Of a stretch of DNA of 64,000 bases, positions 22,512-47,378 are shown piece by piece. The stretch lies in NCBI RefSeq assembly GCF_000225705.1, contig NZ_JH126467.1:383435-447434 (forward strand), in the 5' to 3' direction. A program made the translations under genes and the position numbers. The DNA comes from Collinsella tanakaei YIT 12063 (GTDB taxonomy: Bacteria; Actinomycetota; Coriobacteriia; Coriobacteriales; Coriobacteriaceae). The notes beneath the pieces are model-generated. The model was not told where the DNA came from. It did not search any database and saw only the letters and a list, made by a program, of their open reading frames with translations. How positions within the stretch are numbered: the first letter of the stretch is position 1; each line of letters begins with the position of its first letter.

Positions 22512-23192
22512 CTACAGTTTCAGCGCGTTCGCGAGCATCGCCGCCACCTCTGCGCGGGTCGCGGTGTCGTTCGGTCGCAGCTTGTCGGCGTTTCCGCTCA
22601 GGATGCCAGCGCGGACGGCCTTGTCGAGCGGGTCGATGTACCATGCCTCAGCGTCTAGGTCGGTGTACTTCTTCAGCGCGTCGGGCAGTGGCTTGTCCCC
22701 CGTGTAAACGGGGCGCATGACGTCCTGTACCACAGACCAATCGCGGGTGCGGCGAGCGACCACGCCGCCGTTGCCCTGCGAGCCGGATGCGCCGCTGGAC
22801 GTGTTGCCCTCGATGGTCTGGATGTAGTTCCCCTTGTTCAACTCCACGAAGCCCACGTGGTCGTTCGCGCCGTCGCGCGAGCCGGGCCAGTCGAAGATGA
22901 CGATATCGCCGGGCTGCGCGCTCATCTTGGACACGATCATCCCAGCGTTTGCGCACGCGTTTCGGAGCGTTGTGCATGACGCCGTGGGCATGCCGGGGAC
23001 GGTCATCCCCGCTTTGTCGAGCACCCACCACACGAACATGCAACAGTAGGGCACGCCTGAGTTGCCGTAGTACGAGTTGCCCACCTTCTCGGCGAAGGCG
23101 CGCCCGTACTTGGTGCCAGCCTGCGGGTCATCCCAGCGGGAGTAGCCGACCTCGCCCGCTGCGATGGACAGCACCTTGTTAGCGCTCGCCAT
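22512..23192 (-). CDS. Phage endolysin: CHAP amidase/endopeptidase with SLH repeat
   Basis: A 226-residue protein without signal peptide. The CHAP domain occupies residues ~1-165: Cys in GVPYCCMFVWWVLD, His in GANDHVGFVELNKG, and IEGNTSSG carrying the third catalytic polar residue. A single S-layer-homology-type repeat follows (residues ~180-226: YTDLDAEAWYIDPLDKAVR.., LRPNDTATRAEVAAMLANAL) and would bind pyruvylated wall polymer. Its role is to degrade host peptidoglycan after holin opens the membrane. The start has GGAGGTGG upstream inside the preceding small frame. A wall-anchoring SLH repeat on an endolysin is notable because the host locus here encodes a pyruvyl-transferase-like enzyme. 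Confidence 0.93.
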   Translation of the reverse strand: MASANKVLSIAAGEVGYSRWDDPQAGTKYGRAFAEKVGNSYYGNSGVPYCCMFVWWVLDKAGMTVPGMPTASCTTLRNACANAGMIVSKMSAQPGDIVIFDWPGSRDGANDHVGFVELNKGNYIQTIEGNTSSGASGSQGNGGVVARRTRDWSVVQDVMRPVYTGDKPLPDALKKYTDLDAEAWYIDPLDKAVRAGILSGNADKLRPNDTATRAEVAAMLANALKL

Positions 23193-23283
23193 AATCGACC
23201 ACCTCCACCTCTGCCACGTCTCCTACGTCCGTTGAGTCCTGCGCTTCGATTTGATTCTTCTCTTCGCTGGTAAGCTCTGCCAT
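23179..23283 (-). CDS. Small acidic phage protein between holin and endolysin
   Basis: A 34-codon frame starting MAELTSEEKNQIEAQDSTDV, strongly acidic and without a membrane segment. GCGGAAAAG lies just upstream of the ATG. It overlaps the endolysin start by 14 bases and begins 9 bases after the holin stop, which suits a genuine small gene in a packed operon. No function can be assigned. Confidence 0.5.
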   Translation of the reverse strand: MAELTSEEKNQIEAQDSTDVGDVAEVEVVDYGER

Positions 23284-23292
23284 CTTTTCCGC

Positions 23293-23571
23293 CTACTTCC
23301 GCGCCGTGACGGCGCTGAGTCCGAGAATTGAGCCGAACAGCGTGGTAAGCGCCAGGCACACCTTCGTCACCTCGTCCGCGCACGGAAGCTCCAACATCGC
23401 GTAGAACGTGCCGACGGCTGGGATGCCCAGCACGCCCAGCCACTTCAGCACGTCGTAGAGCCACGCGGGGAGCCAATACCTCATGTAGTCCTTGACCTCC
23501 ACCTCGTCCGGGATGTCCGGCAGCTCCAGCTTGGTGGTGGTGGAGGGGTCTTGCTTCTTAGTCGTAGTCAT
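23293..23571 (-). CDS. Phage holin
   Basis: A 92-residue protein. The hydrophilic N-terminus is followed by a first hydrophobic segment (WLYDVLKWLGVLGIPAVGTF) and a second (VCLALTTLFGSILGLSAVTA), ending in a basic tail. Two membrane segments, small size and position directly before the endolysin match two-helix holins of Gram-positive phages. It forms the membrane lesion that times lysis. AGGAGG lies five bases upstream of the ATG. Confidence 0.8.
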   Translation of the reverse strand: MTTTKKQDPSTTTKLELPDIPDEVEVKDYMRYWLPAWLYDVLKWLGVLGIPAVGTFYAMLELPCADEVTKVCLALTTLFGSILGLSAVTARK

Positions 23572-23579
23572 ATGTCCTC

Positions 23580-23924
23580 CTAGTCTTCAATCGGCAGCTC
23601 GCACAGGCGCTTGTACATCGCCGTGCCGCCGCCGTTGCCGCCGTATTCATCGTGGTAGAGGTGGTACATGCGGTCGAGGTCGCGCCGCTCGGCTGGGCGC
23701 ATAGGCTCGCCCTTGCCGATGTGGACGTGAAACTCGTCTTTAATTCGGTAGTAGAGCAGCAGCTGCAGGACGGAGTGCTCGGCGTCGATGGCTTCTTGCA
23801 GCTCGCGCTTGTTCTCCTCACGGTCGCGCTTGGCGTTGCGGATGCCCTGCGCGGCGGCACCGAGCGCGAGCGACACCACCATCAGCAGGACTTGGTATGC
23901 CAGGTCTCCCATGTCCACTGGCAT
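23580..23924 (-). CDS. Membrane-anchored coiled-coil protein in the lysis region
   Basis: Start MPVDMGDLAYQVLLMVVSLA; the leading hydrophobic segment (YQVLLMVVSLALGAAAQGI) is a single membrane anchor. A charged helix follows (NAKRDREENKRELQEAIDAE) and a C-terminal region of about 55 residues (YYRIKDEFHVHIGKGEPMRP..). GGGGAG lies just upstream; a GTG at 23918 or ATG at 23912 are alternative starts. It lies between the XkdX-like gene and the holin, so it may be a holin partner or lysis regulator. I do not recognise the family. Confidence 0.75.
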   Translation of the reverse strand: MPVDMGDLAYQVLLMVVSLALGAAAQGIRNAKRDREENKRELQEAIDAEHSVLQLLLYYRIKDEFHVHIGKGEPMRPAERRDLDRMYHLYHDEYGGNGGGTAMYKRLCELPIED

Positions 23925-23949
23925 CCCTCCCCTCGGGGTCGTTGGTGAT

Positions 23950-23982
23950 AAAAAAAGCCCCCGCCAAGCTGATGACGGGGGC
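23950..23982 (-). terminator. Terminator between tail and lysis genes
   Basis: GCCCCCG pairs with CGGGGGC around a 12-base loop, followed by a run of T on the minus strand. It lies after the XkdX-like gene, so the lysis genes need readthrough (antitermination) or their own promoter. Confidence 0.8.
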
Positions 23983-24006
23983 ATGCGTTCGTCGCTGGTT
24001 GATGCG

Positions 24007-24117
24007 CTAGGCGTTGTCAGCCGCCAGCATCTCCTCGACCTTCTTCTTCCACAGGCTGGGCACCTTCTCAATCGTCCAAGTGCCTGCGTGGATCATGTTG
24101 TAGTAGAGCTTTGCCAT
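24007..24117 (-). CDS. XkdX-like small phage protein
   Basis: 36 residues: MAKLYYNMIHAGTWTIEKVP, then SLWKKKVEEML. The pattern (aromatic N-terminus, H/K-G-x-W-T, then a short basic helix) matches the XkdX family found at the end of phage tail operons. TAAGGAG lies six bases upstream of the ATG. The function of XkdX is not known. Confidence 0.8.
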   Translation of the reverse strand: MAKLYYNMIHAGTWTIEKVPSLWKKKVEEMLAADNA

Positions 24118-24153
24118 TTCTAACTCCTTAAAATCGCTTGCCAGACCCTATGC

Positions 24154-24372
24154 CTAGCAATTTGTCAAATCGGATACCGCCACGCCCAGCTCGGCTGCGG
24201 CGGTCTGGGTATCGGACGCCAGAGCGCCGAGTTCGGCGATTGCGTCGGTGTTGGTGGAGACGGCTGCTCCGAGTTCGGCCACCGCGCCCTCCACGTCCGC
24301 GCCGCACCGCTCGGTGGAGTCAACGTAGACCTCCACGCTGGCATCATCGCTTGCGTTGATGACGATGTTCAT
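24154..24372 (-). CDS. Small tail-operon protein with AELG repeats
   Basis: A 72-residue protein: an N-terminal beta-rich part (MNIVINASDDASVEVYVDST) followed by three AELGxxxS units (VAELGAAVS, IAELGALAS, AAELGVAVS) that form a short helical or coiled-coil repeat. AAAGGA lies upstream. The AELG repeat recurs in the next gene upstream (24386-24868), so the two products probably share an origin or interact. Role unknown, probably a fibre accessory. Confidence 0.7.
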   Translation of the reverse strand: MNIVINASDDASVEVYVDSTERCGADVEGAVAELGAAVSTNTDAIAELGALASDTQTAAAELGVAVSDLTNC

Positions 24373-24385
24373 GGGTCAATCCTTT

Positions 24386-24868
24386 CTATCCCTTGGCGCT
24401 TTCCAGCGCCTCTACACGGACGGTCAAATCAGCCACCATGCCGCCAAGCTCGGCAACAGCCGCCTGCGTGTCGGTGCCGTCGCTGATTGCCTGCGACGCG
24501 ATGACGCCCAGCTCGGCGGCAGCGCCCTCGGTGTCGGTGGCCCTCTGCTGCGCTGCGTCGGCGGTGTCCTGCGCCGCGTCAGCCGCCTTCTTTGCAACGG
24601 CGAGGTTGGTCTCCAGCGCCTTGATGCTCTCGGCGGTCTGGGGGTCGAGGGCACGCGCGGTGTGGAGCGCGATGTAGCCGTCCTCCTGCTTCACGGCGGC
24701 AACGACCTTATGGCCGTCCATCGCGGCCACGTCATCGCCCGCGTCGGTGGTGACCTTGAGCGCCTGTCCGTCCAAAGCGACCGCCGTGGCGAGGTCGGTG
24801 TCGAGGATGAAGCACGCGGAATCGCCGTCGATCGCGTAGCTGATGAGCGTGAGTTGGTTTAGTTTCAT
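24386..24868 (-). CDS. Tail-operon protein with helical AELG repeat region
   Basis: A 160-residue protein. The N-terminal half is beta-rich (MKLNQLTLISYAIDGDSACF..). From residue ~85 a long alanine-rich helix (NLAVAKKAADAAQDTADAAQ) carries AAELGVIAS and VAELGGMVADL and ends in VRVEALESAKG, a likely trimeric coiled coil. GAAAGGAG is placed well for the ATG. Position and shape suggest a fibre-associated or chaperone protein; the family is not recognised. Confidence 0.7.
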   Translation of the reverse strand: MKLNQLTLISYAIDGDSACFILDTDLATAVALDGQALKVTTDAGDDVAAMDGHKVVAAVKQEDGYIALHTARALDPQTAESIKALETNLAVAKKAADAAQDTADAAQQRATDTEGAAAELGVIASQAISDGTDTQAAVAELGGMVADLTVRVEALESAKG

Positions 24869-24918
24869 GGTTGCTCCTTTCGGATGGTGGAGGTATTCGG
24901 TTGGTGGAGGTGGAGGTG

Positions 24919-25283
24919 CTAGCGGTAGCCGACAACGTGGATAATGTCAGCATATTGCCCATCGAGCACGATTGAGAATCCATTGATAACGTCGTTCTTG
25001 ATGGTTACGGTGACGTTGCCGTAGTCTTCTTGAATGGTCGCGGTCGCTCCGACTTTCGCTTGCAGCGTCATTCTGCTGATTTTATAATTGCCCATTCCAA
25101 TCATGCAACGGACGTCCACATCGAACCGCTGAAAGTCGCTCAAGTTGCCGTAGCGCGAGACATTGCTAGACGCGTTGCTGCCGTCCGCTAGCAACGTCTC
25201 AGGGAGATACCCCCCCCCATCAGCTTCTCGACCACCGCTTTTAGGTTCGCCGCGCTGATAGGTTGCTCAGATGAGATTGCCAT
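24919..25283 (-). CDS. Fibre-tip cassette F, poly-G interrupted (OFF as sequenced)
   Basis: The start at 25283 (CGGAGG upstream) gives MAISSEQPISAANLKAVVEK, the segment shared by all six cassettes, then LM and the G9 tract (25210-25218). In the present frame the protein ends GGGISLRRC at 25188. With one more G (G10) or two fewer (G7) it would run on through YLPETLLADGSNASS.. to ..IIHVVGYR at 24919, about 121 residues. The intact downstream frame and its beta-rich, natural composition show that it is selected as protein. Last cassette of the array. Confidence 0.75.
25210..25218. repeat. Poly-G tract of cassette F (G9, coding strand)
   Basis: Nine C on the plus strand. It lies at the join between the shared N-terminal segment and the variable domain. 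ON length would be 7 or 10. Confidence 0.8.
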
Positions 25284-25319
25284 TTGGCACCTCCGGTTTA
25301 TTTGGTTTGGTTTGGTTGG

Positions 25320-25691
25320 TTAGAGTTTGAAGCCAATGGCGGCAACGAAGTAGTAATCGCTGCTAGACCCGCTGCCCTTGAACGTGAGCTGCGTGCCGTT
25401 GGTAACGGTGACTTCCACGCCAGTGTTTGTGTATTTGATATCTTTCTTGCCGCGATGAAATGCGAAGAACGTGTTGTCGTGGCCGCCCTTGCTCGTTCTT
25501 TGACAAATGTTGAAGAATGCGATGAAATCGTAGTTCTCGATGCTGTCGGAGAGCGTCCCGCTGAAATTGCGGCCGGCGTTGCTCGGGGCTTCGATTAGTA
25601 GCTTAGCTTTCAGGAGCGACCCCCCCGTCAGCCCATCGAGCGCCGCCTTGAGGTTGCCAGCGCTGATTGGCTGGTCGGAATTGATAGACAT
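25320..25691 (-). CDS. Fibre-tip cassette E (ON: the only in-frame poly-G cassette)
   Basis: 123 residues from the ATG at 25691, behind a strong GGAGG. The shared segment MSINSDQPISAGNLKAALDG is followed by LTGG, encoded by a G7 tract (25620-25626), and then the variable domain (SLLKAKLLIEAPSNAGRNFS.., ending DYYFVAAIGFKL). The frame is open throughout. The variable domain is beta-rich with alternating hydrophobic residues and ends, like the others, in a short hydrophobic strand with IG. Likely role: receptor-contacting tip of the tail fibre. Confidence 0.8.
   Translation of the reverse strand: MSINSDQPISAGNLKAALDGLTGGSLLKAKLLIEAPSNAGRNFSGTLSDSIENYDFIAFFNICQRTSKGGHDNTFFAFHRGKKDIKYTNTGVEVTVTNGTQLTFKGSGSSSDYYFVAAIGFKL
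25620..25626. repeat. Poly-G tract of cassette E (G7, coding strand)
   Basis: Seven C on the plus strand; reads ACG GGG GGG TCG in frame. Confidence 0.8.
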
Positions 25692-26116
25692 GGTGGATAC
25701 CTCCGTTATCTTGGTGGATGACTTAATTCCTATAATCGCGGCGATTTTGGAGCCAGCGCCGCCGTAACGGTTGTTACTGAATATCTTCCATCTACCGTCT
25801 GGCAACAGCGTGAACTTGTATCCGCCGTCATTGATGTTGTACCTCCATTGGTAGTAGCCGTCCTTCATATCTGATTTGAGGACAAGCTCGCTTCCGATGG
25901 TTGCGTCTGCAGGCACGATGACGATGGCTCTGTACCCCTCCATATCAATCGTCACGGTACTGCTTGTGCCGCTCGTAATTGTGCCGGAGGTGTTGTTCTT
26001 CACACCGTAGTAGAGCACTCTAGCTTCTGGGATACCCCCCCCCACTTATTTTCAGCCGCTTGCATGGCTGCCTTGAGGTTGGAGGTGGAGATTGGTTGGT
26101 CTGGTGCGATTGGCAT
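25692..26116 (-). CDS. Fibre-tip cassette D, poly-G interrupted (OFF); would fuse to E when ON
   Basis: Start ATG at 26116 with AGGAGCG upstream: MPIAPDQPISTSNLKAAMQA, AENK, then W and the G9 tract (26035-26043). As sequenced it stops at 26000. With G10 or G7 it reads IPEARVLYYGVKNNTSGTIT.. through KIAAIIGIK. Unlike the other cassettes there is then no stop codon: the frame continues through the Shine-Dalgarno region of cassette E into its ATG. D in the ON state would therefore be a D-E double-domain protein of about 265 residues. The missing stop may be a mutation or deliberate. Confidence 0.7.
26035..26043. repeat. Poly-G tract of cassette D (G9, coding strand)
   Basis: Nine C on the plus strand. 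ON length would be 7 or 10. Confidence 0.8.
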
Positions 26117-26126
26117 GTGCTCGCTC

Positions 26127-26523
26127 CTATCTGTAACCTATGACCCTGTGTATATGCAGCTGGTCGTACTCTTTCGAGCTGCTCGAATAGGTCGAGTGGT
26201 AGACCCGCTTACCATCGATACTCGCGACCCAACCATCCGCAGGGTTGTAACCGTTGATGAATATCGCGCAGCCGTCCCCCTCAGGCATGCTCACGTCCTG
26301 CGAGAGGAAGTAGAACGGGTCTGGGTCTTTGCCCGTCCGCTTCGTGGAGATCGAGAAGAACACGCGGATGAACTTGAAGTTTTTAACGTCCTCGCTCAGC
26401 GTGACGTCTGGGGAGCCTGTCTCATCGTGGTAAAGCTCCTTTGCTATGAGCACCCCCCCCGCCACGATTAAAGACTGCTTTAAGATTAGCCGCGCTAATC
26501 GGCTGCGCGTCTGACACTGCCAT
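26127..26523 (-). CDS. Fibre-tip cassette C, poly-G interrupted (OFF)
   Basis: Start ATG at 26523 (AAAGGAG upstream): MAVSDAQPISAANLKAVFNR, then the G8 tract (26453-26460). The current frame ends after GALPR at 26422. G7 or G10 would open GGVLIAKELYHDETGSPDVT.. to ..LHIHRVIGYR at 26127, about 131 residues. The variable domain contains FIRVFFSISTKR and a GDGCAIFINGYN loop, unlike the domains of the other cassettes. Same architecture and position in the array. Confidence 0.75.
26453..26460. repeat. Poly-G tract of cassette C (G8, coding strand)
   Basis: Eight C on the plus strand, preceded in coding sense by GGC. ON length would be 7 or 10. Confidence 0.8.
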
Positions 26524-26535
26524 TTGATATCTCCT

Positions 26536-26971
26536 TTACGCTGTTCGCTTCCAGATGTACACGGATAGATAAGGCGGCATGTTGTTGTGGGGTTGGTCTC
26601 CACCAACGCTATCCGTACTCTGATATTCCGAACTGTTAAGCTTGCCGAATGAGATTGTGCTCGAATCAGAATCTTGAAACGAATAGCCTCTAATCGTATG
26701 GCTGTGGCTCGGCATCTCATCCACCGTCAGCTTATGCGTCTCCTCGCCGCCAGTGCTGCCAGCTGCATGCTTGGAATCAGCCGCGAAAAGGAACCTGCCC
26801 TGAATCTGCTGCCACGTGCCGCCGAACAAGGTGGAGGGGTTGGTGGAGTTCACGCTCATGTAGATGCTGCCCACGGGGTACATGCTATTTATGAGACCCC
26901 CCCCCGCTATCTTTTGCAAAAATAGCCTTCAAGTTCCCGATCGATACGGGCTGGTCATCACTGATTGGCAT
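26536..26971 (-). CDS. Fibre-tip cassette B with tail-collar domain, poly-G interrupted (OFF)
   Basis: Start ATG at 26971 (AGGAGG upstream): MPISDDQPVSIGNLKAIFAK, DS, then the G9 tract (26897-26905). The current frame stops at 26885 after GGGSHK. G8 or G11 would open LINSMYPVGSIYMSVNSTNP, STLFGGTWQQIQGRFLFAAD, EMPSHSHTIRG and HNNMPPYLSVYIWKRTA, ending at 26536 (about 145 residues). This is a recognisable phage tail-collar/short-fibre domain with the HxH metal motif (SHSH) of gp12-type tips. Its ON length differs from that of the other four cassettes. Confidence 0.8.
26897..26905. repeat. Poly-G tract of cassette B (G9, coding strand)
   Basis: Nine C on the plus strand. ON length would be 8 or 11. 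Confidence 0.8.
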
Positions 26972-26981
26972 ATGCGTCCTC

Positions 26982-27395
26982 CTAGATGATTCCTACAACT
27001 CTGATAACATTCACGCCGCTTGACTTGAATCCAGCACGATTGAATGTGATATGCGTGGTAGTGATGCCGGTCGCGTCTATCTTCACATCTCCGCTGGTAA
27101 ACGGCACCTCGACAACGTAGTAGTGGTAAGTTTTGCTCGATATTTTATTTGCGTAGCTGATGCGGGCTATCCTGCATCCGCTCGCGTTGTACGTGCCCTC
27201 GCTCGCTCCATCCGCGTTGTAGAAAAGCTGCTTTTCCTGCGGGGTCGTTTTCTTGAGGTTGTTAATCGCGGTCGTAATCTGCGAACTCGTCCACGTCTTC
27301 GCCGAGTCGATTTGGCTTGTCACCCATGTTTTGAGGTTGTCTGTCAGCGCCTTGACGTTGGCAGAGCTGGTCGGCTCGTCACCCTGAATCGCCAT
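26982..27395 (-). CDS. Fibre-tip cassette A (no poly-G tract, constitutively in frame)
   Basis: 137 residues from the ATG at 27395: MAIQGDEPTSSANVKALTDN, a coiled segment (SAKTWTSSQITTAINNLKKT), then a beta-rich domain ending GVNVIRVVGII. It has the same N-terminal segment as the other cassettes but joins its variable domain by helical sequence instead of glycines, so it cannot be switched by slippage. It is the first gene after the main fibre and may be the default tip or the adaptor to which the others attach. Confidence 0.75.
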   Translation of the reverse strand: MAIQGDEPTSSANVKALTDNLKTWVTSQIDSAKTWTSSQITTAINNLKKTTPQEKQLFYNADGASEGTYNASGCRIARISYANKISSKTYHYYVVEVPFTSGDVKIDATGITTTHITFNRAGFKSSGVNVIRVVGII

Positions 27396-27408
27396 AACCT
27401 CCACCTCC

Positions 27409-28452
27409 TTATTTGAGACCTAGGTAGGTCAGAAGCTCGTCATTGCTTGGGAAATTGAACACGGCCTTGCGCACACCGTCTATCGTGGTCTGCCCCGTGC
27501 CGCCGTGCGCCACGTCAAGCGCCGCTAGCGTGTTGCCCAAGCCCATCGCGTTGCGGTGAGCGGCGGGGTCGCTGATATGCTGTGGCTGGACGGATTTCTG
27601 CATCAGCTTGGCGGGGCCGACCGATGAATTGGCCAGCTTATCCGTTGTGACCGCGCCGCTCTCAAGCTTGGCGGTGGAGACGGCGCCAGCCACCAGCTCG
27701 GCGGTGCCCACGCTGCCGTCTGCCATCTTGTCAGCCGTGACGCTATTCGCCGCGAGTTTCGCGCTGGTGATACCGCCGTCCTTGACCTGCAATTGCTGGC
27801 TCGCATTTCGCGAGATCGTGGTGCCGTCAACCTTGACCTCGGCTTGCGCGATCAACTCGTTGACCTTTTCATCCGTGCCGTCATACGATACGAAGCCGCC
27901 AGTTGCGTCAACGATCGCGGCGTGCTTGAGCTGCAGACCGCCGTCCTTGACGCTGAGACGGTTGTCTTTGTTGGTAATCGTGATTTCGTCAGCAGATGGA
28001 ACCACGTACGGCGCGAACTCCGCCGTGACATTCACATCGTTGCCAACGTACGTCACCACATCGATGAGCTTTTCGATAGCCGTGGCTCCACCGCCAGCGG
28101 GGATGGTCTCGGCGCTCTCCCCGGTGTTTCCGTAGCTATACAGGATTTCGCCGAGGTCGGGGTCTTTGGCATATAGACCCAGCTCGCGCCATTCGAAGTC
28201 CTGCGATTGTTCGCTGTTGTCGTACCTGCCGCCTACCACCGCCGCGCCGTTGCCCGTCACCTCGCACTTGGTGATTTCCATGGTCGCTTTAGGAGACACA
28301 ACGGCGGTCATGTGCTCGGGCACTTGGCTGGATGGCATGTAGCCGTCACCCATGACGATGCGCGTGAACGTGATGCTGCCCTTGCTCGCCATGACCTTGG
28401 CGATTAGCAGGCTGCCAGCGTCCGTGATTGCGTTGACGTCAAATCCGCTCAA
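27409..28452 (-). CDS. Tail fibre protein
   Basis: 347 residues from a TTG start (AGGAGG upstream). The N-terminal ~150 residues (GFDVNAITDAGSLLIAKVMA, FTRIVMGDGYMP, FEWRELGLYAKDPDLGEILY) match the baseplate-attaching domain of P2 gpH-like fibres. The shaft carries repeats SAKLAANSVTADKMADGSVG, TAELVAGAVSTAKLESGAVT and TDKLANSSVGPAKL, typical of trimeric fibre shafts. The C-terminus has AHGGTGQTTIDGVRKAVFNF, a common fibre end. It follows gpI and precedes the cassette array, so it probably carries the cassette products at its tip. Confidence 0.88.
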   Translation of the reverse strand: MSGFDVNAITDAGSLLIAKVMASKGSITFTRIVMGDGYMPSSQVPEHMTAVVSPKATMEITKCEVTGNGAAVVGGRYDNSEQSQDFEWRELGLYAKDPDLGEILYSYGNTGESAETIPAGGGATAIEKLIDVVTYVGNDVNVTAEFAPYVVPSADEITITNKDNRLSVKDGGLQLKHAAIVDATGGFVSYDGTDEKVNELIAQAEVKVDGTTISRNASQQLQVKDGGITSAKLAANSVTADKMADGSVGTAELVAGAVSTAKLESGAVTTDKLANSSVGPAKLMQKSVQPQHISDPAAHRNAMGLGNTLAALDVAHGGTGQTTIDGVRKAVFNFPSNDELLTYLGLK

Positions 28453-28466
28453 ATCTCCACCTCCTT

Positions 28467-29039
28467 TTACTTGTGGTTGCTATAACCGAGGTCGATGGTG
28501 TCCGCGCTCGTGATGCGCGTGGAGATTCCCACGTGCGCGACCTGCGACCCCATCAGTCCAATTTCGATGCCGTCCAGCACGCTCGACTTGCGCTTGACCT
28601 TCTCGAGCATGGTTAGGAACAGGTCGAGGTTCTCCGCGACCGCGCTCGGGTCTGTTGTATAGACCTTGAAGTGGTGCGGCAGACCGCCGTACTCCGTCCA
28701 TTCGCGCACCTTGCCCGTGCCGAAGTAGGACGCGACCACGCTCTCGACCGCCGCGACCGTGCCGAGCCGCATGTGTACCAGGTCGCTGTTGCGGATGAGG
28801 TCGCGCTTGGTTGCGATGCTCGCGCCGTCCTCCCACCACTGGATGTCGAGCGCCCACGCAAGCTCATCGAGCGCGGACTCCGGCAGCACGTCCAGCGCGT
28901 CCCAGATGGTCAGGCTCGCCAGCTGCGGGGCGGCGCGGGTTATGGAATCGTCCACACCCTGCGCCAGCGCTATGTCCGCTTCGTCCGCCTGCATCCATGA
29001 CGGCAGCAGCCGCCGCATCTCTAGATCGCTGAGCCGCAT
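28467..29039 (-). CDS. Baseplate protein gpI (P2-like tail protein I)
   Basis: About 190 residues from the ATG overlapping the stop of the gpJ gene (TGATG). Segments LASLTIWDALDVLPESALDE, LAWALDIQWWE, TKRDLIRNSDLVHMRLGTVA and a VREWTEYGGLPHHFKVYTT strand are characteristic of the P2 gpI family. It connects the J wedge to the fibre at the baseplate rim. Family length is normal (~180-200). Confidence 0.88.
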   Translation of the reverse strand: MRLSDLEMRRLLPSWMQADEADIALAQGVDDSITRAAPQLASLTIWDALDVLPESALDELAWALDIQWWEDGASIATKRDLIRNSDLVHMRLGTVAAVESVVASYFGTGKVREWTEYGGLPHHFKVYTTDPSAVAENLDLFLTMLEKVKRKSSVLDGIEIGLMGSQVAHVGISTRITSADTIDLGYSNHK

Positions 29040-30373
29040 CACGACCACCCCGCCGTGCGCTCGACCGTGTGCGTGGCTTTAGTTGTGCCGTTCCAATGCG
29101 CTACCTGCGTGGTGCCGACCGCCGTGTGGACGGGCTGCTTAACGTCGCAGCGCAACGCTCCCGCCTGCATGACGTACGTCTTGAGCACATCGGGATTGAT
29201 GGCGCGACCAAGCACCTCGCACTGCTCGGACTTGTAGCGCTCGATGGCGCCGCCAGCCCCCTCCACCGCTTGTACCACGGTGGCTTCGTCCTCCACGGTG
29301 GTGGTATAGGAGAGCTGGATTCCGTAGTCCACGTAGGTCGGCTTCTCCACCGTCACCACATCGGTCATGGGGCGCACCGTGCGGTCGTTGACAGCGTTTG
29401 CTACCTGCTCCACCACGTCATCATCGGGCTGCCTGCCGCCCTCCATGAGCGGGACTACCTTGACTCGCCCGTCCATACGGCGCTGCACCGCGACCTCCAC
29501 TGTGCTTTGAGACGCGAGGGAACCCGTAAGCGTGATGTCTAGCAGTGAATCTGCGTAGACGTACGTGAAGTCCGTGGCCCTGCCGTTGACGGTCAAAAGC
29601 TCGTCAGGCTCCAGCAGGTCTCCACCTATGTACACGTGGTTGTTCACCGGCTTGCACGTCTTTGTGTCGGTGTAGGTCTCTGAGAAAACAGCCACGTCCA
29701 CGATGTCGGCGTTGGCGCTCATCGCGTGGTAGCGGTACGCCTGCTCGGGGCCAGCGGTGGAGAGCCTGTTCGGTGCCAGCTTGATGCGCTCGCGGTAGCG
29801 GTCATCGCCGTCCGTTGTGTAAGGCTCGCCGTCATCGCCGCCGCTCGTCACGGTCATGTTCTGCACGGCCTTGACGTAGGGCTGGAGGTCTACCAGCGTA
29901 GCCACATCTCCAACGAGGATGCCGTTGCCGACCTCGCCCGCCGTCTCGCATTCGGCGGGAGCGGTTCCCGTGAGCTGCCCCGCGTTTATGACGCATGCCG
30001 CCGTGGTTCTGAAATAGATCGTGCCGTCCGTGGTGACGCGCGTCATCGCGGGGATGGTGATAGCTCCAGTTTGCGCGGCACTCAGCGTGAACTTGAGCGT
30101 TGTGGTCGCTGGCGTAGCCGCGATGCGCTCCACGCCAAGGCGCTCGCCAAGCGCGTCAAGCACCTTGCCGCGAGCGTAGCGCAGGAATGTCTGGCGCGAT
30201 GCGTCATTGGCCTTCGCTAGGTACGTTGCCAGAACCGCCACCAGCGCTTCGCCGAAGATTCGGCGTTCGTCACCGGGGTAGAGCGCTTCGCTAACGCCTT
30301 GCTCCAGATTGACCAGCACATCGCTGTAGATGGTGGAGGTATCCACGTCCACGAGATTGATTTCGTCTGCCAT
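29039..30373 (-). CDS. Baseplate wedge protein gpJ
   Basis: A 444-residue member of the Baseplate_J family. The N-terminus (YSDVLVNLEQGVSEALYPGD, FGEALVAVLATYLAKANDAS) is followed by RGKVLDALGERLGVERIAAT, DDRYRERIKLAPNRLSTAGP and EQAYRYHAMSANADIVDV, all typical J segments. C-terminal beta domain. It forms the baseplate wedge with gpW and gpI. AAGGAGG supports the start. It lies in the P2 order W-J-I-fibre. Confidence 0.93.
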   Translation of the reverse strand: MADEINLVDVDTSTIYSDVLVNLEQGVSEALYPGDERRIFGEALVAVLATYLAKANDASRQTFLRYARGKVLDALGERLGVERIAATPATTTLKFTLSAAQTGAITIPAMTRVTTDGTIYFRTTAACVINAGQLTGTAPAECETAGEVGNGILVGDVATLVDLQPYVKAVQNMTVTSGGDDGEPYTTDGDDRYRERIKLAPNRLSTAGPEQAYRYHAMSANADIVDVAVFSETYTDTKTCKPVNNHVYIGGDLLEPDELLTVNGRATDFTYVYADSLLDITLTGSLASQSTVEVAVQRRMDGRVKVVPLMEGGRQPDDDVVEQVANAVNDRTVRPMTDVVTVEKPTYVDYGIQLSYTTTVEDEATVVQAVEGAGGAIERYKSEQCEVLGRAINPDVLKTYVMQAGALRCDVKQPVHTAVGTTQVAHWNGTTKATHTVERTAGWS

Positions 30374-30384
30374 GCGAAACCTCC

Positions 30385-30657
30385 TTAGTCTGAGATTGAA
30401 AGCGTGACGGCGTTGTCCCCGTCCATTCCATCGGTCAGCACATCGAGCGTCACGTCATCGACTACAACGCGCGGCTCGTAAGATTCGACCACCCACTGCG
30501 CGTCAGGCCGCACCCTCCACCTCTCCGTGGATGGCAGGTCTATGAGCGCACGGTCGATGCCCTTGGCACGCGCGTACGGCACCTCGCCGCGCACGATGCG
30601 GACTAGGTTCAACGCGCACACCTGCGGCCTTCCGTTACCGGTTGAAAGCATGCTCAT
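30385..30657 (-). CDS. Baseplate protein gpW/gp25-like
   Basis: About 90 residues from the ATG at 30657, which overlaps the upstream stop (TGATG). NGRPQVCALNLVRIVRGEVP, YARAKGIDRALIDLP and the C-terminal beta-strands match the gp25-like lysozyme-fold baseplate proteins (P2 gpW). It nucleates sheath assembly on the baseplate. Order and size fit the P2 module. Confidence 0.78.
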   Translation of the reverse strand: MSMLSTGNGRPQVCALNLVRIVRGEVPYARAKGIDRALIDLPSTERWRVRPDAQWVVESYEPRVVVDDVTLDVLTDGMDGDNAVTLSISD

Positions 30658-31193
30658 CACATCCCCGCGTTGGTCGGAATCTTGCCAGCCGCCTGAGAGG
30701 TGGAGGGGCCTACGCTCACGGCGCTGGTCGCGGTCTGCTCGAAGATGCCGGGCTTGAGTTCGGTTGCCGCGCCCTTCTGGGCTTTAAGTCCAGATGCTTC
30801 TTGGGCGTATTCCTCAAACTTGAGCGAAATCTTGCACTCTTGGAAATTGCCCGAGCCGTCCATGATGATGTCGCTGCAATCGGCGCTGGTCAGCAGGAAC
30901 AAATCGCCTAGGAACTTGCGACCGCCCAGATAGAACGGCGCGTACGTGCCGACCAACCTCCGCCATGCACCATACACGGAGCGCGGGTCTTCTCCCGTGG
31001 CACCGCGATTGACGGTGTAGTCCACATCGATGGTCATGAGGTCGAAGGCCACCGTCTGCGTTGCCGGCTCGCCCTCTTTCTCCTCGTTGCGCTCGACCGA
31101 CACGGAGCGCTTGGCGGCTATTGATTCGAGCGGTTTTATCTGGTCGGGCGAAATCTCCCACCGTATGCCCGACCATTCGGCTTGCACGCCCAT
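30657..31193 (-). CDS. Tail protein gpU-like
   Basis: 178 residues. WSGIRWEISPDQIKPLESIA, SVERNEEKEGEPATQTVAFD, GEDPRSVYGAWRRLVGTYAP and FLGDLFLLTSADCSD resemble the P2 GpU family, which is associated with the tail tube end or baseplate. The C-terminal ~50 residues are low-complexity. It lies between the V-like and W-like genes instead of next to the tape measure. GGGAGG precedes the ATG. Confidence 0.7.
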   Translation of the reverse strand: MGVQAEWSGIRWEISPDQIKPLESIAAKRSVSVERNEEKEGEPATQTVAFDLMTIDVDYTVNRGATGEDPRSVYGAWRRLVGTYAPFYLGGRKFLGDLFLLTSADCSDIIMDGSGNFQECKISLKFEEYAQEASGLKAQKGAATELKPGIFEQTATSAVSVGPSTSQAAGKIPTNAGM

Positions 31194-31317
31194 GGCGGCA
31201 CCTCCCGATTTCTAAAACGAAGCGATATAGGCGTTTCAGAACGTTTTAATTGCGTTTTTCGCAGTTTTTTGCCCTGAAACGCGATTAAACCGCTGATTTC
31301 GGTTGTTTTGGTTGCGT
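31194..31317. other. Intergenic spacer with dyad in the baseplate operon
   Basis: About 124 AT-richer bases. GCGTTTCAG (31231-31239) and CTGAAACGC (31274-31282) form perfect 9-base arms, and several AACGCxATTAAA elements lie around them. No gene is seen. It may be an mRNA stability or attenuation element. Confidence 0.5.
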
Positions 31318-31635
31318 TTAATGCGGCGTGCCGGTCTCGCCGTGGACGCCCGAGTGCGTGTGTCCCTTGAAGCTCACTCCGCCGATCGTCACGTCCGTGG
31401 GGACGCTCGCCGACCACTCGCCGTCCGCTCGGCACAGGACGATTCCCGTGCCGTCCGCGAACTTGGCGCACACCACCTCATCGCCGACGTTGAGCGGGCA
31501 CATGCCGCCGCGCATCGAGAAGTGGAGGGGGAACGGTCGCGTGACCACGCCATCGGCCACCAGCGGCAGGACGCTCGCGGTCGAGCCGTCCAGCGTGGAT
31601 ACGCGAGCCTTGAAGATGGGCGGGATTTCTGCCAT
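31318..31635 (-). CDS. Baseplate spike protein gpV-like
   Basis: 105 residues. An OB-fold-like domain (FKARVSTLDGSTASVLPLVA, LNVGDEVVCAKFADGTGIVL) is followed by the spike tip VSFKGHTHSGVHGETGTPH, a histidine-rich end that binds metal at the membrane-piercing tip. It is shorter than P2 gpV (~211 aa), as in the compact Gram-positive myophage version. It pairs with the D-like hub encoded directly upstream. Confidence 0.82.
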   Translation of the reverse strand: MAEIPPIFKARVSTLDGSTASVLPLVADGVVTRPFPLHFSMRGGMCPLNVGDEVVCAKFADGTGIVLCRADGEWSASVPTDVTIGGVSFKGHTHSGVHGETGTPH

Positions 31636-31636
31636 A

Positions 31637-32551
31637 TCAGTACCCTTCCAATGGTTTAGTGAGCCAAATCTTGCAGCGGCTGTCGTAGTAGTCGTGCCGC
31701 ATCGCTTTGACGAATGCCTTGCCGTCCCAGCTCGCCGCCTTGTCGGCGTGGAGGGTCAGCACGGAGCCAGCCGCATATTGCCTGAGCATGCTATCCGTGC
31801 GTATGGTCATCTCCACCGCATCGCGGTTGGCTTCGCGGAGCAGACCCTTGGCGAATCTGGACGCTTCCGCAACGTTGCTAATCCGTCCCTGGATGACACG
31901 GTTAAGGCTCTTACCTTGTCCAACCGTGAAGGTGGAGGTGGTGGAGCCGTCCGTGACGGTGCATGAACCGTAAGCGAGGTTGCTGTCATCGCGGAACGTG
32001 TAATCAAGTCCCGCGCGTATCTCCACCTCGCCGTTCGATTCCTGCGATTCCATCCACGGTGCGCTGTAAGCGATGAGCTTGCCGTCGAAGATGATGAGCG
32101 CGGCGCTCTCAAGCGTTAAGCGCCTGTTCAAAAACGCCAAATCGCTCTCGTTGTCCTGTTCAACGTAGGCGTACTCTGGATTGTCCAGTCCGTAGCTCTC
32201 CCACTCCATGCCGTTAGTCCGCGCTATCTCGCTGACCAGTTGCAGCAGACGGACGCGCTGCCACGATCTGTTGCGGCGCTCGCGCATCGACTGCGGCGCG
32301 GGGTACGCCGTGACCTGCATCTGGCTTGACTTAGGCGTGACGTGCGCGATGTACATCTTGCCAGTGCGGGCGGCACCGTCCTTAATCTCGATGGTGTCAC
32401 CCGCCTTGGGGTTCCACTTGTCCCATGTGCCGTTAATGTCTCCGAAGTCCACTTGCAGGCTGTCCATCGCGCCATATGCTCGCATGTCGTGCCAGCAGCG
32501 GCCTACGCTAATCTCCGGATAGATGTCCACGCCCTCGTATATGACCTGCAT
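31637..32551 (-). CDS. Baseplate hub, late control protein D-like
   Basis: 304 residues with the gp27/gpD hub fold: INGTWDKWNPKAGDTIEIKD, a YAYVEQDNESDLAFLNRRLT segment, LTLESAALIIFDGKLIAY and FAKGLLREANRDAVEMTIRT are typical. It closes the end of the tail tube and holds the spike (V). The start lies a few bases after the gpX stop, as in P2 (X-D order). Confidence 0.88.
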   Translation of the reverse strand: MQVIYEGVDIYPEISVGRCWHDMRAYGAMDSLQVDFGDINGTWDKWNPKAGDTIEIKDGAARTGKMYIAHVTPKSSQMQVTAYPAPQSMRERRNRSWQRVRLLQLVSEIARTNGMEWESYGLDNPEYAYVEQDNESDLAFLNRRLTLESAALIIFDGKLIAYSAPWMESQESNGEVEIRAGLDYTFRDDSNLAYGSCTVTDGSTTSTFTVGQGKSLNRVIQGRISNVAEASRFAKGLLREANRDAVEMTIRTDSMLRQYAAGSVLTLHADKAASWDGKAFVKAMRHDYYDSRCKIWLTKPLEGY

Positions 32552-32554
32552 AGG

Positions 32555-32788
32555 CTATCGCCGCCAAGGTGGCAGCGTGTCGGGAGTCTCCACCGTCTCC
32601 ACCAGCGGCAGGCGGATGGTCTCGCCGCCATCGAAGAGCAGCACGTCTATGTAGTCGGGGTTCTCCTGCGCGATGACGTGAGCCATCGTCTCGGTGCCGT
32701 AGGCTTGCGCCGCCAAGAGGTCGAATGAATCCCCTTGCCTGCACACGTAGGCCTTGTAGCCCTTGACCTCCACCTTGCGATTAGACAT
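32555..32788 (-). CDS. Tail protein X-like (LysM-like)
   Basis: About 77 residues starting MSNRKVEVKGYKAYVCRQGD. The segment YVCRQGDSFDLLAAQAYGTE, then HVIAQENPDYIDVLLFDGGE, is the Phage_tail_X LysM-like domain. It links hub and tail tube. It overlaps the end of the tape measure gene by eight bases. Confidence 0.85.
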   Translation of the reverse strand: MSNRKVEVKGYKAYVCRQGDSFDLLAAQAYGTETMAHVIAQENPDYIDVLLFDGGETIRLPLVETVETPDTLPPWRR

Positions 32789-34730
32789 AGGCAGCCTCCT
32801 CGCGCCGCGCGAGCGCATCCATAACAAAGTCCATGAAATCGCCCTCGCACTGCATGATCGCGGCCACGATGTCATCCTTGCTCGCGTTGCCGCGAACTAT
32901 CACGTTCGGCGAGAACGTCATACCGCTGAGGTCGTAGCTGACGGAACCTCCACCGCCACCAGAGGAGGTGGAGGAAGAGCCACCGGAGCGAGCGCCGAGC
33001 ATATGTCCCGCCATCGCCCAGTACCTGAGGTTTTGCGCACGGTAGGCGGGGTTAAACGAAATGACCGCTTCGGTTGGGTAGCGCGGGTCTTCGCCGGCGA
33101 TGGACGGGCCAGCCGTGAATCCGCCGGTTGCGAAGCCAAGCAGGCCGCCGATGCCTCCGATGATGCTTCCGCCGATTTCCGCGAGCTTCGCGGCAGCTCG
33201 TCCAGCAAGGCTGATGATGGAGCCGAGAGCGCCCAACACCGGCTGTATCGCGTTGAACAGGCCGATGAAGAAGCTGGCAGCGGACTGGATGGGGCCGTAC
33301 ATGGACGCTATAGCGCTGTTGACGGCTGGCATGACCTGGCTTGCAACCGTTGTGAAGATGCCTCGCACGCTGTTCACTACGCCGAGCACGCCGTTGAAAG
33401 CTCCTATCAGCCCCATGACGATAGGCAGCACCGCCTGGATCACGGGCGTGAGGAACTGAACAGCGCTCGTGAGCATGGGGAGCACGGCAGATGCGATGTT
33501 CGCGATGACGGAGGCTATAGGCGTGATGTAGTTGATGAGCGGAGGAAGTATCGCGGTGGCTATCGCCGAAATCAACGGGATGATGTTCGATATGGCCGAG
33601 AATAGCGGGGGCAGAACCGCATTAGCCAGATTCGTAAGAGGAGGTCCCACGGCTTCTATGACCGGCTTAATGGATTCCATCGCGCTGGACAAGGCCGACA
33701 TGACGCCGCCGGCGTCGATGTTCGGGAGCTGTATTCCGAGAGACCCGAGCGCCGACACGGCCATGTTCCAAGCCCCCGCGAGCGCTTCGGATAGCACGGG
33801 CGCTATCTTGGAAGCAGCCCCGGCGAGCATATCCGGAAGCGATTCCATCATCTGCCCCGCGATCTGGTTGATGCGCGGCAGAACGTTCTTCGCCACGTTG
33901 TCTATGGACTTCACGAGGTTGTCGGTCAGCTGGGACATGTCGGCGTCCTCGTTGCCAAGACCAGTGAGCCAGTTGCTCCACGCCGCCTTCATCGAGTTCA
34001 CGGAACCCTCGATGGTCGTAGCCGCCTCGTCTGCGGTGGCACCCGTGATTCCAAGGTTCTCCTGAACCGCGTGGATAGCCTTGATGACGTCACCGAAATT
34101 CTCGGGGTCGAGCGCTTCGCCCGTAAGCTTCGAAGCGTCAGCGACAAGCTTCTCCATCTCCTCCTTCGTGCCGCCGTAGCCGAGGCGCAAGTTGTCCAGC
34201 ATCGCGTACGAGCCGCGCATGAGCGATTGGTACGTCGCCTGCACGGTCTCGATGTCGGTGCCCATGCGGTTGGCGTTGTCGGACATGTCCTTGATTGCCA
34301 TATCTGCACGGTCAACCGCCGCATGCGTATCACCGCCGAGCGACTTCATGAGCGACGCGGAGAAGGACGTCACCTGGTCGAGGTATGCGTTTGACGAGAT
34401 GCCTGCGGTTGCGTACGCATCGTCCGCGAGCCCTTGGATATACGGGTAGATCTCGTCACCCATGATGGCCTTGACGCCGCCCGACAACTGCTCGAAGCTC
34501 GCGTAGCTCTTTAAAGAAGCGGTGCCTATCGCGGCGGCGGCGGATGCTGCCGCTCCGGCTACGGCGGTTGCCGCCTGTGCCGTGACCTTCAGCGCCGCCC
34601 CACCCATGTTCATCAGCCGCTTGTTTGCCGAGCTGGTCATCTTCTCGGCTTTGTTGAGAGCAGCGCTAACGGACGGATCCATCTTTCCGAGCAGCTTGAT
34701 GGTGGCTTGCAGCTCCCTGCCCTTGCCCAT
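32781..34730 (-). CDS. Tail tape measure protein
   Basis: About 649 residues from the ATG at 34730 (GGGG eight bases upstream; a GTG three codons earlier is possible). The N-terminal region (GKMDPSVSAALNKAEKMTSS) is coiled. The middle has KSYASFEQLSGGVKAIMGDE and SNAYLDQVTSFSASLMKSLG, the TP901/TMP core. Long hydrophobic helices (VLPMLTSAVQFLTPVIQAVL) follow, and then a glycine-rich end (FATGGFTAGPSIAGEDPRYP). Its length sets the tail at roughly 100 nm if the usual ~1.5 Angstrom per residue holds. Confidence 0.92.
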   Translation of the reverse strand: MGKGRELQATIKLLGKMDPSVSAALNKAEKMTSSANKRLMNMGGAALKVTAQAATAVAGAAASAAAAIGTASLKSYASFEQLSGGVKAIMGDEIYPYIQGLADDAYATAGISSNAYLDQVTSFSASLMKSLGGDTHAAVDRADMAIKDMSDNANRMGTDIETVQATYQSLMRGSYAMLDNLRLGYGGTKEEMEKLVADASKLTGEALDPENFGDVIKAIHAVQENLGITGATADEAATTIEGSVNSMKAAWSNWLTGLGNEDADMSQLTDNLVKSIDNVAKNVLPRINQIAGQMMESLPDMLAGAASKIAPVLSEALAGAWNMAVSALGSLGIQLPNIDAGGVMSALSSAMESIKPVIEAVGPPLTNLANAVLPPLFSAISNIIPLISAIATAILPPLINYITPIASVIANIASAVLPMLTSAVQFLTPVIQAVLPIVMGLIGAFNGVLGVVNSVRGIFTTVASQVMPAVNSAIASMYGPIQSAASFFIGLFNAIQPVLGALGSIISLAGRAAAKLAEIGGSIIGGIGGLLGFATGGFTAGPSIAGEDPRYPTEAVISFNPAYRAQNLRYWAMAGHMLGARSGGSSSTSSGGGGGSVSYDLSGMTFSPNVIVRGNASKDDIVAAIMQCEGDFMDFVMDALARREEAAYV

Positions 34731-34753
34731 CTCGTCCACCCCCTATGCTGTTA

Positions 34754-34888
34754 TCAATGTCGGCGGCGCGGAGACCTGAACTTTTGCCGCGATTGCTCCG
34801 CCTTAATCTTCTTTTCGATTTGCTTCTGCTCCTCCTCGGCGTCCTCCACCGCTTCTGATAGCTCGCGGAAGAAGTCGAGCATTCCCAT
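34754..34888 (-). CDS. Tail assembly chaperone, frameshift-extension part (gpE'-like)
   Basis: A 44-codon frame MGMLDFFRELSEAVEDAEEE.. rich in charged helix. The same frame is open and natural further upstream (CFNESPREIRQ) where it overlaps the chaperone gene. It lies one base back (-1) relative to that gene, which fits the E/E' or G/GT arrangement, where ribosomes slip to make a C-terminally extended chaperone. The overlap contains AAAGCCCCCG, but no perfect slippery heptamer. It lies directly before the tape measure, as expected. Confidence 0.65.
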   Translation of the reverse strand: MGMLDFFRELSEAVEDAEEEQKQIEKKIKAEQSRQKFRSPRRRH

Positions 34889-34893
34889 CTGCC

Positions 34894-35277
34894 TTATTTC
34901 GCGGGGGCTTTCGTTGAAGCATTTTGCGTAGGCTCGGACTCCTCGCCTGACTGATCTAGCGTCAGGCCCTCCAAGGCGCCCAAGGTAAAAAAACGTCCAG
35001 CCGCCGACATGGCCATCGCATCTTTAAGGCACAGACGGTCGAGGTCGGTGGAGTCGAGCGATTGGTCGGCTGCCATGGCCGCTTGGTAAGCGACCTGCAG
35101 ATGCAGCGCCGAATCGTTCTCTGACATGATGATGCCGATGTTGCCCTTGTGGCACTTGGCCGCCGCATCGGTGGCAGCCAAGAAGCCCTCCACCGTCACC
35201 GAATCAAAGTCGAGGTCGATGTGGTCGCGCTCGGCGCCGTTGACGGCCAGGGGCTTGGACAATTTGACTGTTTGCAC
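34894..35277 (-). CDS. Tail assembly chaperone (gpE-like)
   Basis: 127 residues from a GTG start (AGGAGCTAATC upstream). MQTVKLSKPLAVNGAERDHI, LDFDSVTVEGFLAATDAAAK and LQVAYQAAMAADQS are typical of the small helical chaperones between tail tube and tape measure. It prevents tape-measure aggregation during tail assembly. The C-terminus (ASTKAPAK) overlaps the -1 frame of the extension part. Confidence 0.8.
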   Translation of the reverse strand: MQTVKLSKPLAVNGAERDHIDLDFDSVTVEGFLAATDAAAKCHKGNIGIIMSENDSALHLQVAYQAAMAADQSLDSTDLDRLCLKDAMAMSAAGRFFTLGALEGLTLDQSGEESEPTQNASTKAPAK

Positions 35278-35288
35278 GATTAGCTCCT

Positions 35289-35326
35289 TAAAAAAGGAGG
35301 GGCGTCCCGAACAAGTGAGACGCCCC
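35289..35326 (-). terminator. Attenuator between tube and chaperone genes
   Basis: GGGGCGTC pairs with GACGCCCC around a 12-base loop, followed on the minus strand by TCCTTTTTTAAGG. It lies inside the tail operon and would lower expression of chaperone and tape measure relative to the abundant tube and sheath. Confidence 0.75.
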
Positions 35327-35352
35327 AGATGGTCTATGAGGTGGTGGAGGGA

Positions 35353-35859
35353 TTAGAGCAGCTCCACCACTGCGCTGCCGTAGTCCGTGCCGTTCGCGCG
35401 GAAGATGTCGTTGAGCTGGTCGATGAGGAACATCTCCTCGCCGTCCACGAACAGCTGGTAGCGGGTGACGCCAAGCGTCAGCTCGTTTTCCTGTGCGCTG
35501 CCGACCTCCACGGATAGACCTGGGATGGTCTTGGGAGTGGCGCGCATGAACGCCTTGCAGCCGACCGTGCGCGAGGTGCCATCGTTGGATAGCACGTCCT
35601 GCGCCCAGCGCACCTCCACGTTGTGCGTTCCGAAGGCCACGGCCTTCTTCATACCTGCGTCGGGGCCAGCGAGGGTCACGGTAGCCTCCATCGCCTCCAC
35701 CTGCGCGGGGATGGGGATCTCCACCGTGCCGCCAGCCTTGAGCTCGGAGGTAACGGGGGTGACCTCGGGCAGGGTCACGGTGGCGTTCTTCGCGACCAGA
35801 GCACCGTCCACGTAGACGGTGTTGGCAGCGACAGCGCCTACGATGTCGAGCCATGCCAT
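35353..35859 (-). CDS. Major tail tube protein (P2 FII-like)
   Basis: 168 residues. VEIPIPAQVEAMEATVTLAG, FGTHNVEVRWAQDVLSNDGT, FMRATPKTIPGLSVEVGSA and LTLGVTRYQLFVDGEEMFLI match the FII tube family. It forms the inner tube contacted by the sheath. It follows the sheath gene with overlapping start and stop, as in P2 (FI-FII). Confidence 0.9.
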   Translation of the reverse strand: MAWLDIVGAVAANTVYVDGALVAKNATVTLPEVTPVTSELKAGGTVEIPIPAQVEAMEATVTLAGPDAGMKKAVAFGTHNVEVRWAQDVLSNDGTSRTVGCKAFMRATPKTIPGLSVEVGSAQENELTLGVTRYQLFVDGEEMFLIDQLNDIFRANGTDYGSAVVELL

Positions 35860-37370: not shown

Positions 37371-37400
37371 TTGCGCACCTCCTTGTGCGTGTATATATGT

Positions 37401-38024
37401 TTACAAATAGTCTTGATAATCGATATTCTCGGCGGTCGCTTGCTGCACTGCCACGTCCACCCAACTAAACCAGTAGGGATATAGGTCGAGGATTGCGCCC
37501 TGCTCGGAGTATGGCCCGAAGTTGATAGGCTCGCCGCGCACGGGGGTCACGCCCTCGCCGTAGGCGGCATGCGTCCGTAGCTCTCGGAGCAGCGTGTCCA
37601 TGAAGTTCCACGCGTCCTGCCAGCACTCGTCATAGCGCGGCGCGAAGTCCCTGTCCTCTCCGCGGACGTATCCGACCTCGGACGGATGCCACACGTCGCG
37701 CCCGTGGATGCCGGGGTTCCACACGCCCAAGTGCAGGCGGATGTGGAGGGTCTGCCGCATGTTCGCGGCGTCTTCTTCCCCGTCCAGCACTTGTACCATG
37801 ATGCCCGGATGCGTTGTCTCCACCTGGGGTGGCAGCTGGGCGCGGTCGGCGGGCCAGTACATCCCTAGGACAGCTGGATGCACGAGCCTGTAGTCGTAGC
37901 CGTCCGCGCTCTGCTGCATGGCGGGATTGGTGGAGTTGTCGGGCGGGGCCTTGAGGGTGACCTTGGGACACACCTCGGTCTTGAGCCAGTCCATCAACGT
38001 GTTGACCGTCTGCACCACGCTCAT
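37401..38024 (-). CDS. Tail completion / neck protein
   Basis: 207 residues. Position between head-tail joining genes and the sheath, and segments such as LMDWLKTEVCPKVTLKAPPD, HPAVLGMYWPADRAQLPP and VRGEDRDFAPRYDECWQDAW, indicate a neck or tail-terminator protein of Gram-positive myophages. The C-terminus YPYWFSWVDVAVQQATAE is a typical terminator strand pair. I do not recognise a named family with certainty. Confidence 0.65.
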   Translation of the reverse strand: MSVVQTVNTLMDWLKTEVCPKVTLKAPPDNSTNPAMQQSADGYDYRLVHPAVLGMYWPADRAQLPPQVETTHPGIMVQVLDGEEDAANMRQTLHIRLHLGVWNPGIHGRDVWHPSEVGYVRGEDRDFAPRYDECWQDAWNFMDTLLRELRTHAAYGEGVTPVRGEPINFGPYSEQGAILDLYPYWFSWVDVAVQQATAENIDYQDYL

Positions 38025-38039
38025 GTCTCCACCACTCCT

Positions 38040-38345: not shown

Positions 38346-38349
38346 CGCG

Positions 38350-38676: not shown

Positions 38677-38694
38677 ATGCACGCACCTCCTTTA

Positions 38695-39762: not shown

Positions 39763-39787
39763 GTTGCACTCTCCTTTCGTTTATTGA

Positions 39788-40156: not shown

Positions 40157-40158
40157 GG

Positions 40159-42940: not shown

Positions 42941-42951
42941 ATCTCCACCAC

Positions 42952-46940: not shown

Positions 46941-46942
46941 GG

Positions 46943-47335: not shown

Positions 47336-47378
47336 GCTATAATTGCAACATTTCCGCAGCTAGATAGCAAAAAAGCCC

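Follow-up and report, generated by a model that had tools for sequence, protein, structure and literature searches.

The prophage in the analysed window, a stretch of 64,000 nucleotides, carries six leftward genes (c1 to c6) directly after its tail fibre gene. We consider it likely that they encode receptor-binding tips which are subject to combinatorial on/off phase variation by slippage of G runs, and this is the best-supported reading of the locus. All six genes have a related N-terminal anchor of ~20 residues in common. Alignment of the six N-termini gave the consensus M-A-x-S-x-D/E-Q-P-I-S-A-x-N-L-K-A; the residues M, P, S, N, K and A are invariant. In c2 to c6 uninterrupted runs of G9, G8, G9, G7 and G9, respectively, are located at the junction of anchor and domain, 63-73 nt past the ATG. 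Each cassette has its own start codon in a good ribosome-site context (the ATG of c1 is at 27395) and its own anchor. The six leftward genes with related N-termini and the five G runs of the original prediction were all recovered at the positions of Table 1, and the array was indeed found directly behind the fibre gene (28452-27409, then c1 to c6).

As sequenced, the run-less c1 and c5 (G7) are in frame, while c2, c3, c4 and c6 are out of frame. There is one G too many in c2 and c3, which need G8 and G7, and one too few in c4 and c6, which both need G10. This confirmed for c2, c3, c4 and c6 that four of the five variable domains are out of frame and that a change of one G restores each of them. 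The out-of-frame cassettes yield peptides of 28-38 aa that include the anchor. The open frame of c4 has no stop of its own and runs on into c5, resulting in a frame of 241 codons.

Table 1. Features of the prophage and its tip array (window coordinates)
Feature	Position	Strand	Description
Prophage	22512..64000	.	continues to about 66.9 kb by IMG/VR, beyond the window end; PHROG matches, holin, alignment with UViG 2513237344
Baseplate protein	28467..29048	-	Tail_P2_I (Pfam E 6.5e-20; PHROG 14404); contractile-tail context
Tail fibre gene	27409..28452	-	347 aa, precedes the array; PHROG 7037 tail fiber (E 4.5e-48), weak Phage_tail_fib
c1	26982..27395	-	anchor, helices and tip domain; no G run; in frame, 137 aa
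c2	26536..26971	-	anchor (26971-26906) and Gp10_C tip; out of frame, 28 aa product; 144 codons open with 8 G
c2 G9 run	26897..26905	-	
c3	26127..26523	-	anchor and tip domain; out of frame, 33 aa product; 131 codons open with 7 G
c3 G8 run	26453..26460	-	
c4	25692..26116	-	anchor and tip domain; out of frame, 38 aa product; stop-less open frame into c5
c4 G9 run	26035..26043	-	
c5	25320..25691	-	anchor and tip domain; in frame as sequenced, 123 aa
c5 G7 run	25620..25626	-	on state
c6	24919..25283	-	anchor and tip domain; out of frame, 31 aa product; 121 codons open with 10 G
c6 G9 run	25210..25218	-	

In the proposed mechanism a tip would combine the common anchor with a private binding domain of ~85-120 residues, would be fitted downstream of the tail fibre and, in five of the six cassettes, would have its linker glycines written as a single unbroken G run. 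Whenever DNA polymerase added or dropped a G, the private domain would move in or out of frame. Each tip would be switched independently, and a population could hold up to 2^5 on/off combinations plus the constitutive c1. Such varied combinations would let the phage population meet hosts with differing surfaces. The proposal that slippage picks which single tip is made had to be abandoned, because the five switches would act independently and c1 is always on. The anchor presumably attaches the tip to the fibre or the baseplate, because it is common to unrelated domains, is placed after the fibre gene and is accompanied by a conserved fibre C-terminus. The fibre ends with NDELLTYLGLK, and the motif N-D/E-E-L-L-x-Y-L-G-L is kept in the window and in the Olsenella phages described below; this end is a candidate for the docking of the tips. 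The tip domains probably bind host receptors. That slippage occurs at useful rates is a point which we infer.

Among the prophage genes an endolysin, a holin, baseplate, tape measure, sheath, head protease, portal and terminase were recognised, and the prophage, a temperate phage, is of the contractile-tail type (myophage). It resides in a host genome of 2.49 Mb, which its named relatives Olsenella and Slackia assign to the Coriobacteriales, and is present in IMG/VR as UViG 2513237344.

The five junction runs are not due to chance. Five runs of at least seven G were seen in the 2,486-nt array versus 0.18 expected from a first-order Markov model of flanking phage DNA; the 19.9 kb from which the model was derived contain no such run on either strand. 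Because GGG makes up only 8% of the glycine codons in the neighbouring tail genes, the runs are not merely a way to encode glycine. A run-less cassette of Olsenella sp. An293 (A_2) has glycines at the same place written with mixed codons.

The domains that are out of frame are real and conserved. The c2 domain, out of frame as sequenced, was identified as Pfam Gp10_C (E 2.8e-25), and among its INPHARED relatives are some that carry an antireceptor annotation in Lactobacillus delbrueckii phages. Comparison of two out-of-frame copies of Gp10_C, from the window and from An293, gave a dN/dS of 0.43, and comparison with an in-frame copy from an uncultured Olsenella gave 0.23 and 0.40. The corresponding value for the expressed tail fibre, window versus An293, was 0.46. 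Purifying selection on out-of-frame domains, which had been set beforehand as a test of the original prediction, was thus seen for Gp10_C, the sole family with comparable homologues. An out-of-frame cassette of Slackia faecicanis encodes LRR_5, a BspA-type leucine-rich domain (E 5.4e-19). Searches of Pfam and PHROG returned no family match for the domains of c1 and c3 to c6, which show just weak similarity to each other and to the cassettes of other phages. The C-terminal domains had been called unrelated; this is mostly so, with weak similarities of c3 to c5 and of c1 to c5. A structure model of c5 consisted of an N-terminal helix followed by beta-strands and was of moderate confidence with a mean pLDDT of 61.5. 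A fold search with this model found nothing below an E-value of 0.001; matches to a pyocin fibre tip and to antibody folds at E about 0.1 were not taken as evidence. The model of c1 was set aside because its quality was too poor for use.

The occurrence of the anchor was examined by a profile search of 398 genomes of the class and of all genomes in the families to which the two best relatives belong. The anchor was present in only four of the genomes searched, and all four have poly-G arrays. A look for the same N-terminus followed by poly-G in related prophages, named as a check of the original prediction, was thus positive; besides the window, the arrays are in prophages of S. faecicanis, an uncultured Olsenella and Olsenella sp. 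An293. An293 (NZ_NFIT01) has a tail module like that of the window. Its Gp10_C cassette has G9 and is off, as are further cassettes with G9 and G10, and the assembly breaks within a G8 run. Because Illumina reads stop at G runs (PMC9187656), this break was not taken to indicate heterogeneous lengths. The metagenome-assembled genome of the uncultured Olsenella (CASEGE010000189.1, L061) contains seven anchor genes, five of them with G runs. One of these five tips is on (G11, Gp10_C), while those with G10, G9, G9 and G10 are all off; one more G9 run is located at a cassette end. S. faecicanis DSM 17537 has two G9 cassettes, one on and one off, behind an upstream tail that is different from and non-homologous to that of the window. 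In two of the relatives, at L061 8813-8821 and L054 6043-6051, G9 runs were noted before an anchor-like helix instead of after it, i.e. in reversed order. Weak N-terminal matches within the genus were inspected and found to be unrelated. Neither the DNA of the window phage nor the anchor alone had a match in INPHARED.

Two very specific pattern scans were carried out over 2.9 million IMG/VR contigs. The anchor combined with C8 gave four matches, all of them the window phage. G8 combined with the start of Gp10_C gave the window phage, An293 and one new phage, L081 (IMGVR_UViG_2936222045, 759-2056; GC 49%), in which a Gp10_C tip is on at G8 and the neighbouring tip is off at G9. The poly-G tips of L081 stand under a different short N-terminus, M-x-T-I-I-x-x-G-G-G. 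This phage suggests that the poly-G device is wider than the Coriobacteriales. Tandem Gp10_C-type tips with G8-G9 runs were also found in Eggerthella phage LE2-3 (MW679026.1; L079 7677-11669), where the runs sit at other positions, within genes or at gene ends. As deposited, neither LE23_93 nor LE23_97 is in frame; for LE23_97 the Pfam match stops at the run. LE23_93 is annotated as a 306-aa protein, the last part of which is read in the wrong frame, and an unannotated Gp10_C-like gene follows behind it.

Over 17 tracts of these arrays the shift needed to open the frame was -1 in seven, 0 in four and +1 in six. To judge from these counts, the even spread is as expected if the runs slip freely, and speaks against a fixed recoding signal. 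This is relevant to the strongest of the rival explanations, in which the tracts are fixed, RNA polymerase or the ribosome slips, and each tip is made at a partial rate from unchanged DNA. Homopolymers of at least eight nucleotides can indeed give transcriptional slippage (PMC3711429), and recoding would likewise explain why out-of-frame domains are conserved. Yet a recoding site holds one offset, whereas here the three offsets are nearly equal and the homologous Gp10_C cassettes of the window, An293 and L061 differ in run length with G9, G9 and G11. Moreover, the same design varies at the DNA level in Campylobacter phages. We therefore regard recoding as unlikely and slippage of DNA polymerase as the preferred reading.

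A host background in favour of slippage at the DNA level was found as well. Neither MutS nor MutL was detected in the host genome, which is 99.9% complete; the same searches recovered them from 11 of 14 control genomes. Because the host is devoid of both, one-base loops in the G runs would presumably go unrepaired. The rate is another matter. In Bifidobacterium breve, where slippage of G tracts was measured, G11 was strongly mixed and G10 much less so (PMC9187656). The runs of the window are short with G7-G9, so switching may be slow, and with its G7 run c5 may be almost fixed in the on state. The pilus genes of B. breve resemble the array in that an actinobacterium has a G run within a gene for surface adhesion, at its start, and their length heterogeneity has been measured; unlike the array they concern host pili, with a single tract of G10-G11 per operon (PMC9187656). 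A second copy of the window phage for a comparison of tract lengths was present neither in 45 genomes of the genus nor in 67 of the family, nor in IMG/VR beyond one copy. Over 11.9 kb that copy shows no difference, not even in the tracts, and it probably represents the same assembly. The IMG/VR copy of the Slackia phage is identical too, with no tract polymorphism between the two. Taken together, the prediction of phase-variable tips switched by G runs stands as the best-supported reading in view of the recurrence of the arrays, the conserved domains and the lack of MutS and MutL, while variation of tract length within a population is the part of it that we infer.

The length differences might instead be sequencing or assembly errors in homopolymers, with every cassette truly in frame. 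Database genomes can carry wrong G-run lengths (PMC9187656), and the An293 contig pair that ends within a G8 run may reflect sequencing drop-out. However, the four array phages, which come from separate sequencing projects, as well as LE2-3 and L081 all have long G runs with mixtures of on and off states, and an error would not put pure GGG codons at every junction against the codon bias; we judge a miscount to be very improbable. Least probable of all is a silent store from which out-of-frame tips are donated to an expressed gene by recombination via anchor and G run: anchors and junctions are repeated and one anchor carries many unrelated domains, but every cassette has its own start codon, ribosome-site context and anchor, no recombinase or reverse transcriptase was seen among the neighbouring genes tested, and a single-base change is enough to express each cassette. 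The repeats and the many domains per anchor nevertheless make it clear that the array arose through recombination during evolution.

Slippage-switched tips have a precedent, and the view that such an arrangement was unknown before did not hold. In Fletchervirus phages of Campylobacter rbp2 and rbp3 share the design of a common N-terminus, a poly-G glycine linker and a variable domain. According to a passage in PMC10877375, Fletchervirus phages were reported to change phenotype through poly-G tracts (Sorensen et al. 2021, Cell Rep 35:109214), and a statement in the review PMC11868660 credits the same work with the demonstration of phase variation in phages. The genes rbp1 to rbp4 are arranged in tandem with annotated poly-G tracts ~91 nt (about 30 codons) into rbp2 and rbp3. 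The motif Y-G-x-(S/T)-x-(I/F)-K-(D/E)-I-I-(D/N) is common to the N-termini of rbp2, rbp3 and rbp4 in NCTC12673 and F358. What comes next in rbp2 and rbp3 is a stretch of glycines encoded by poly-G; in rbp4 it is the non-repeat GNGGN. Among near-identical Fletchervirus phages the tracts comprise 8-15 G in rbp2 and 7-17 G in rbp3, and their lengths set whether the genes are split or whole. As in the window, a poly-G tract inside the gene and near its 5' end sets the frame of the distal domain in receptor-binding genes of the tail, the genes stand in tandem with a shared N-terminal segment and differing C-terminal domains, and one member is without a tract, rbp4 there and c1 here. In contrast, tract length varies among near-identical phages in Fletchervirus and among homologous cassettes of different phages here. 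The anchors are not homologous (hhalign probability 1.6%), and the Fletchervirus domains are pectin-lyase folds, whereas the window has Gp10_C and small domains with no pectin-lyase match. Fletchervirus has two switchable genes, and here there are five or more; the former are lytic phages of Campylobacter, the latter temperate phages of Coriobacteriales. Campylobacter, like the host here, is known to be without MutSL repair. The array thus resembles the Fletchervirus locus in its working but not by common descent, and looks like an independent, larger counterpart from another phylum.

Other phages vary their tails by different devices. Inversion of tail-fibre DNA, as by Gin of Mu, Cin of P1 and Rin of Bifidobacterium and Eggerthella lenta prophages, resembles the array in offering a choice among alternative receptor-binding ends. 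No invertase or recombinase was found among the neighbours tested, and the array contains only two weak inverted pairs, one of which is the ribosome-site sequence. Diversity-generating retroelements, as in the tail of Bordetella phage BPP-1, act on the same tail module and alter its host-binding end by point mutation, whereas the tips of the window would be turned on and off. There was no reverse transcriptase match among the neighbouring proteins tested and no pair of template and variable repeats in the array. Such retroelements do occur in phage tails of E. lenta prophages (PMC8778435). In a relative of the window phage (genome G098, L056 4096-7187) a reverse transcriptase (RVT_1, E 3.6e-12) and a DUF6273 gene occupy the equivalent tail position, and because of this we regard the tail slot as a place for variation devices in this phage group. 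The same phage has a G10 run (L056 506-515) before an apparent DNA methyltransferase domain, which is out of frame as sequenced.

We give almost an even chance, and so only tentatively propose, that Campylobacter and Coriobacteriales phages reached the same device independently and that loss of MutSL by the host may favour slippage-switched tip arrays in general. L081 and Eggerthella phage LE2-3 hint at a class that is wider still. If the switching proposed for the array is real, tips turned on and off by poly-G runs would be known not only from lytic Campylobacter phages but also from temperate ones of gut Actinobacteria, in arrays that are larger and openly combinatorial. It would also allow a test of the prediction that phages of hosts without MutSL rely on slippage where others employ retroelements or inversions. 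Gene callers give such tips as hypothetical proteins of 28-40 residues or as fused nonsense, e.g. in LE2-3, so that host-range genes are hidden.

G runs were also seen elsewhere in the prophage. A G8 run at 46672-46679 (+) of the window is apparently intergenic (CACGGGGGGGGAGGGG) and is located beside a second copy of the nearby CTCCACGGGGG. A G9 run at 52666-52674 (-) lies within a small early phage ORF, the frame of which shuts soon after the run. Addition of one G opens a frame of 61-121 aa ending in KECEEHGW, which makes this ORF a candidate for an extra phase-variable gene.
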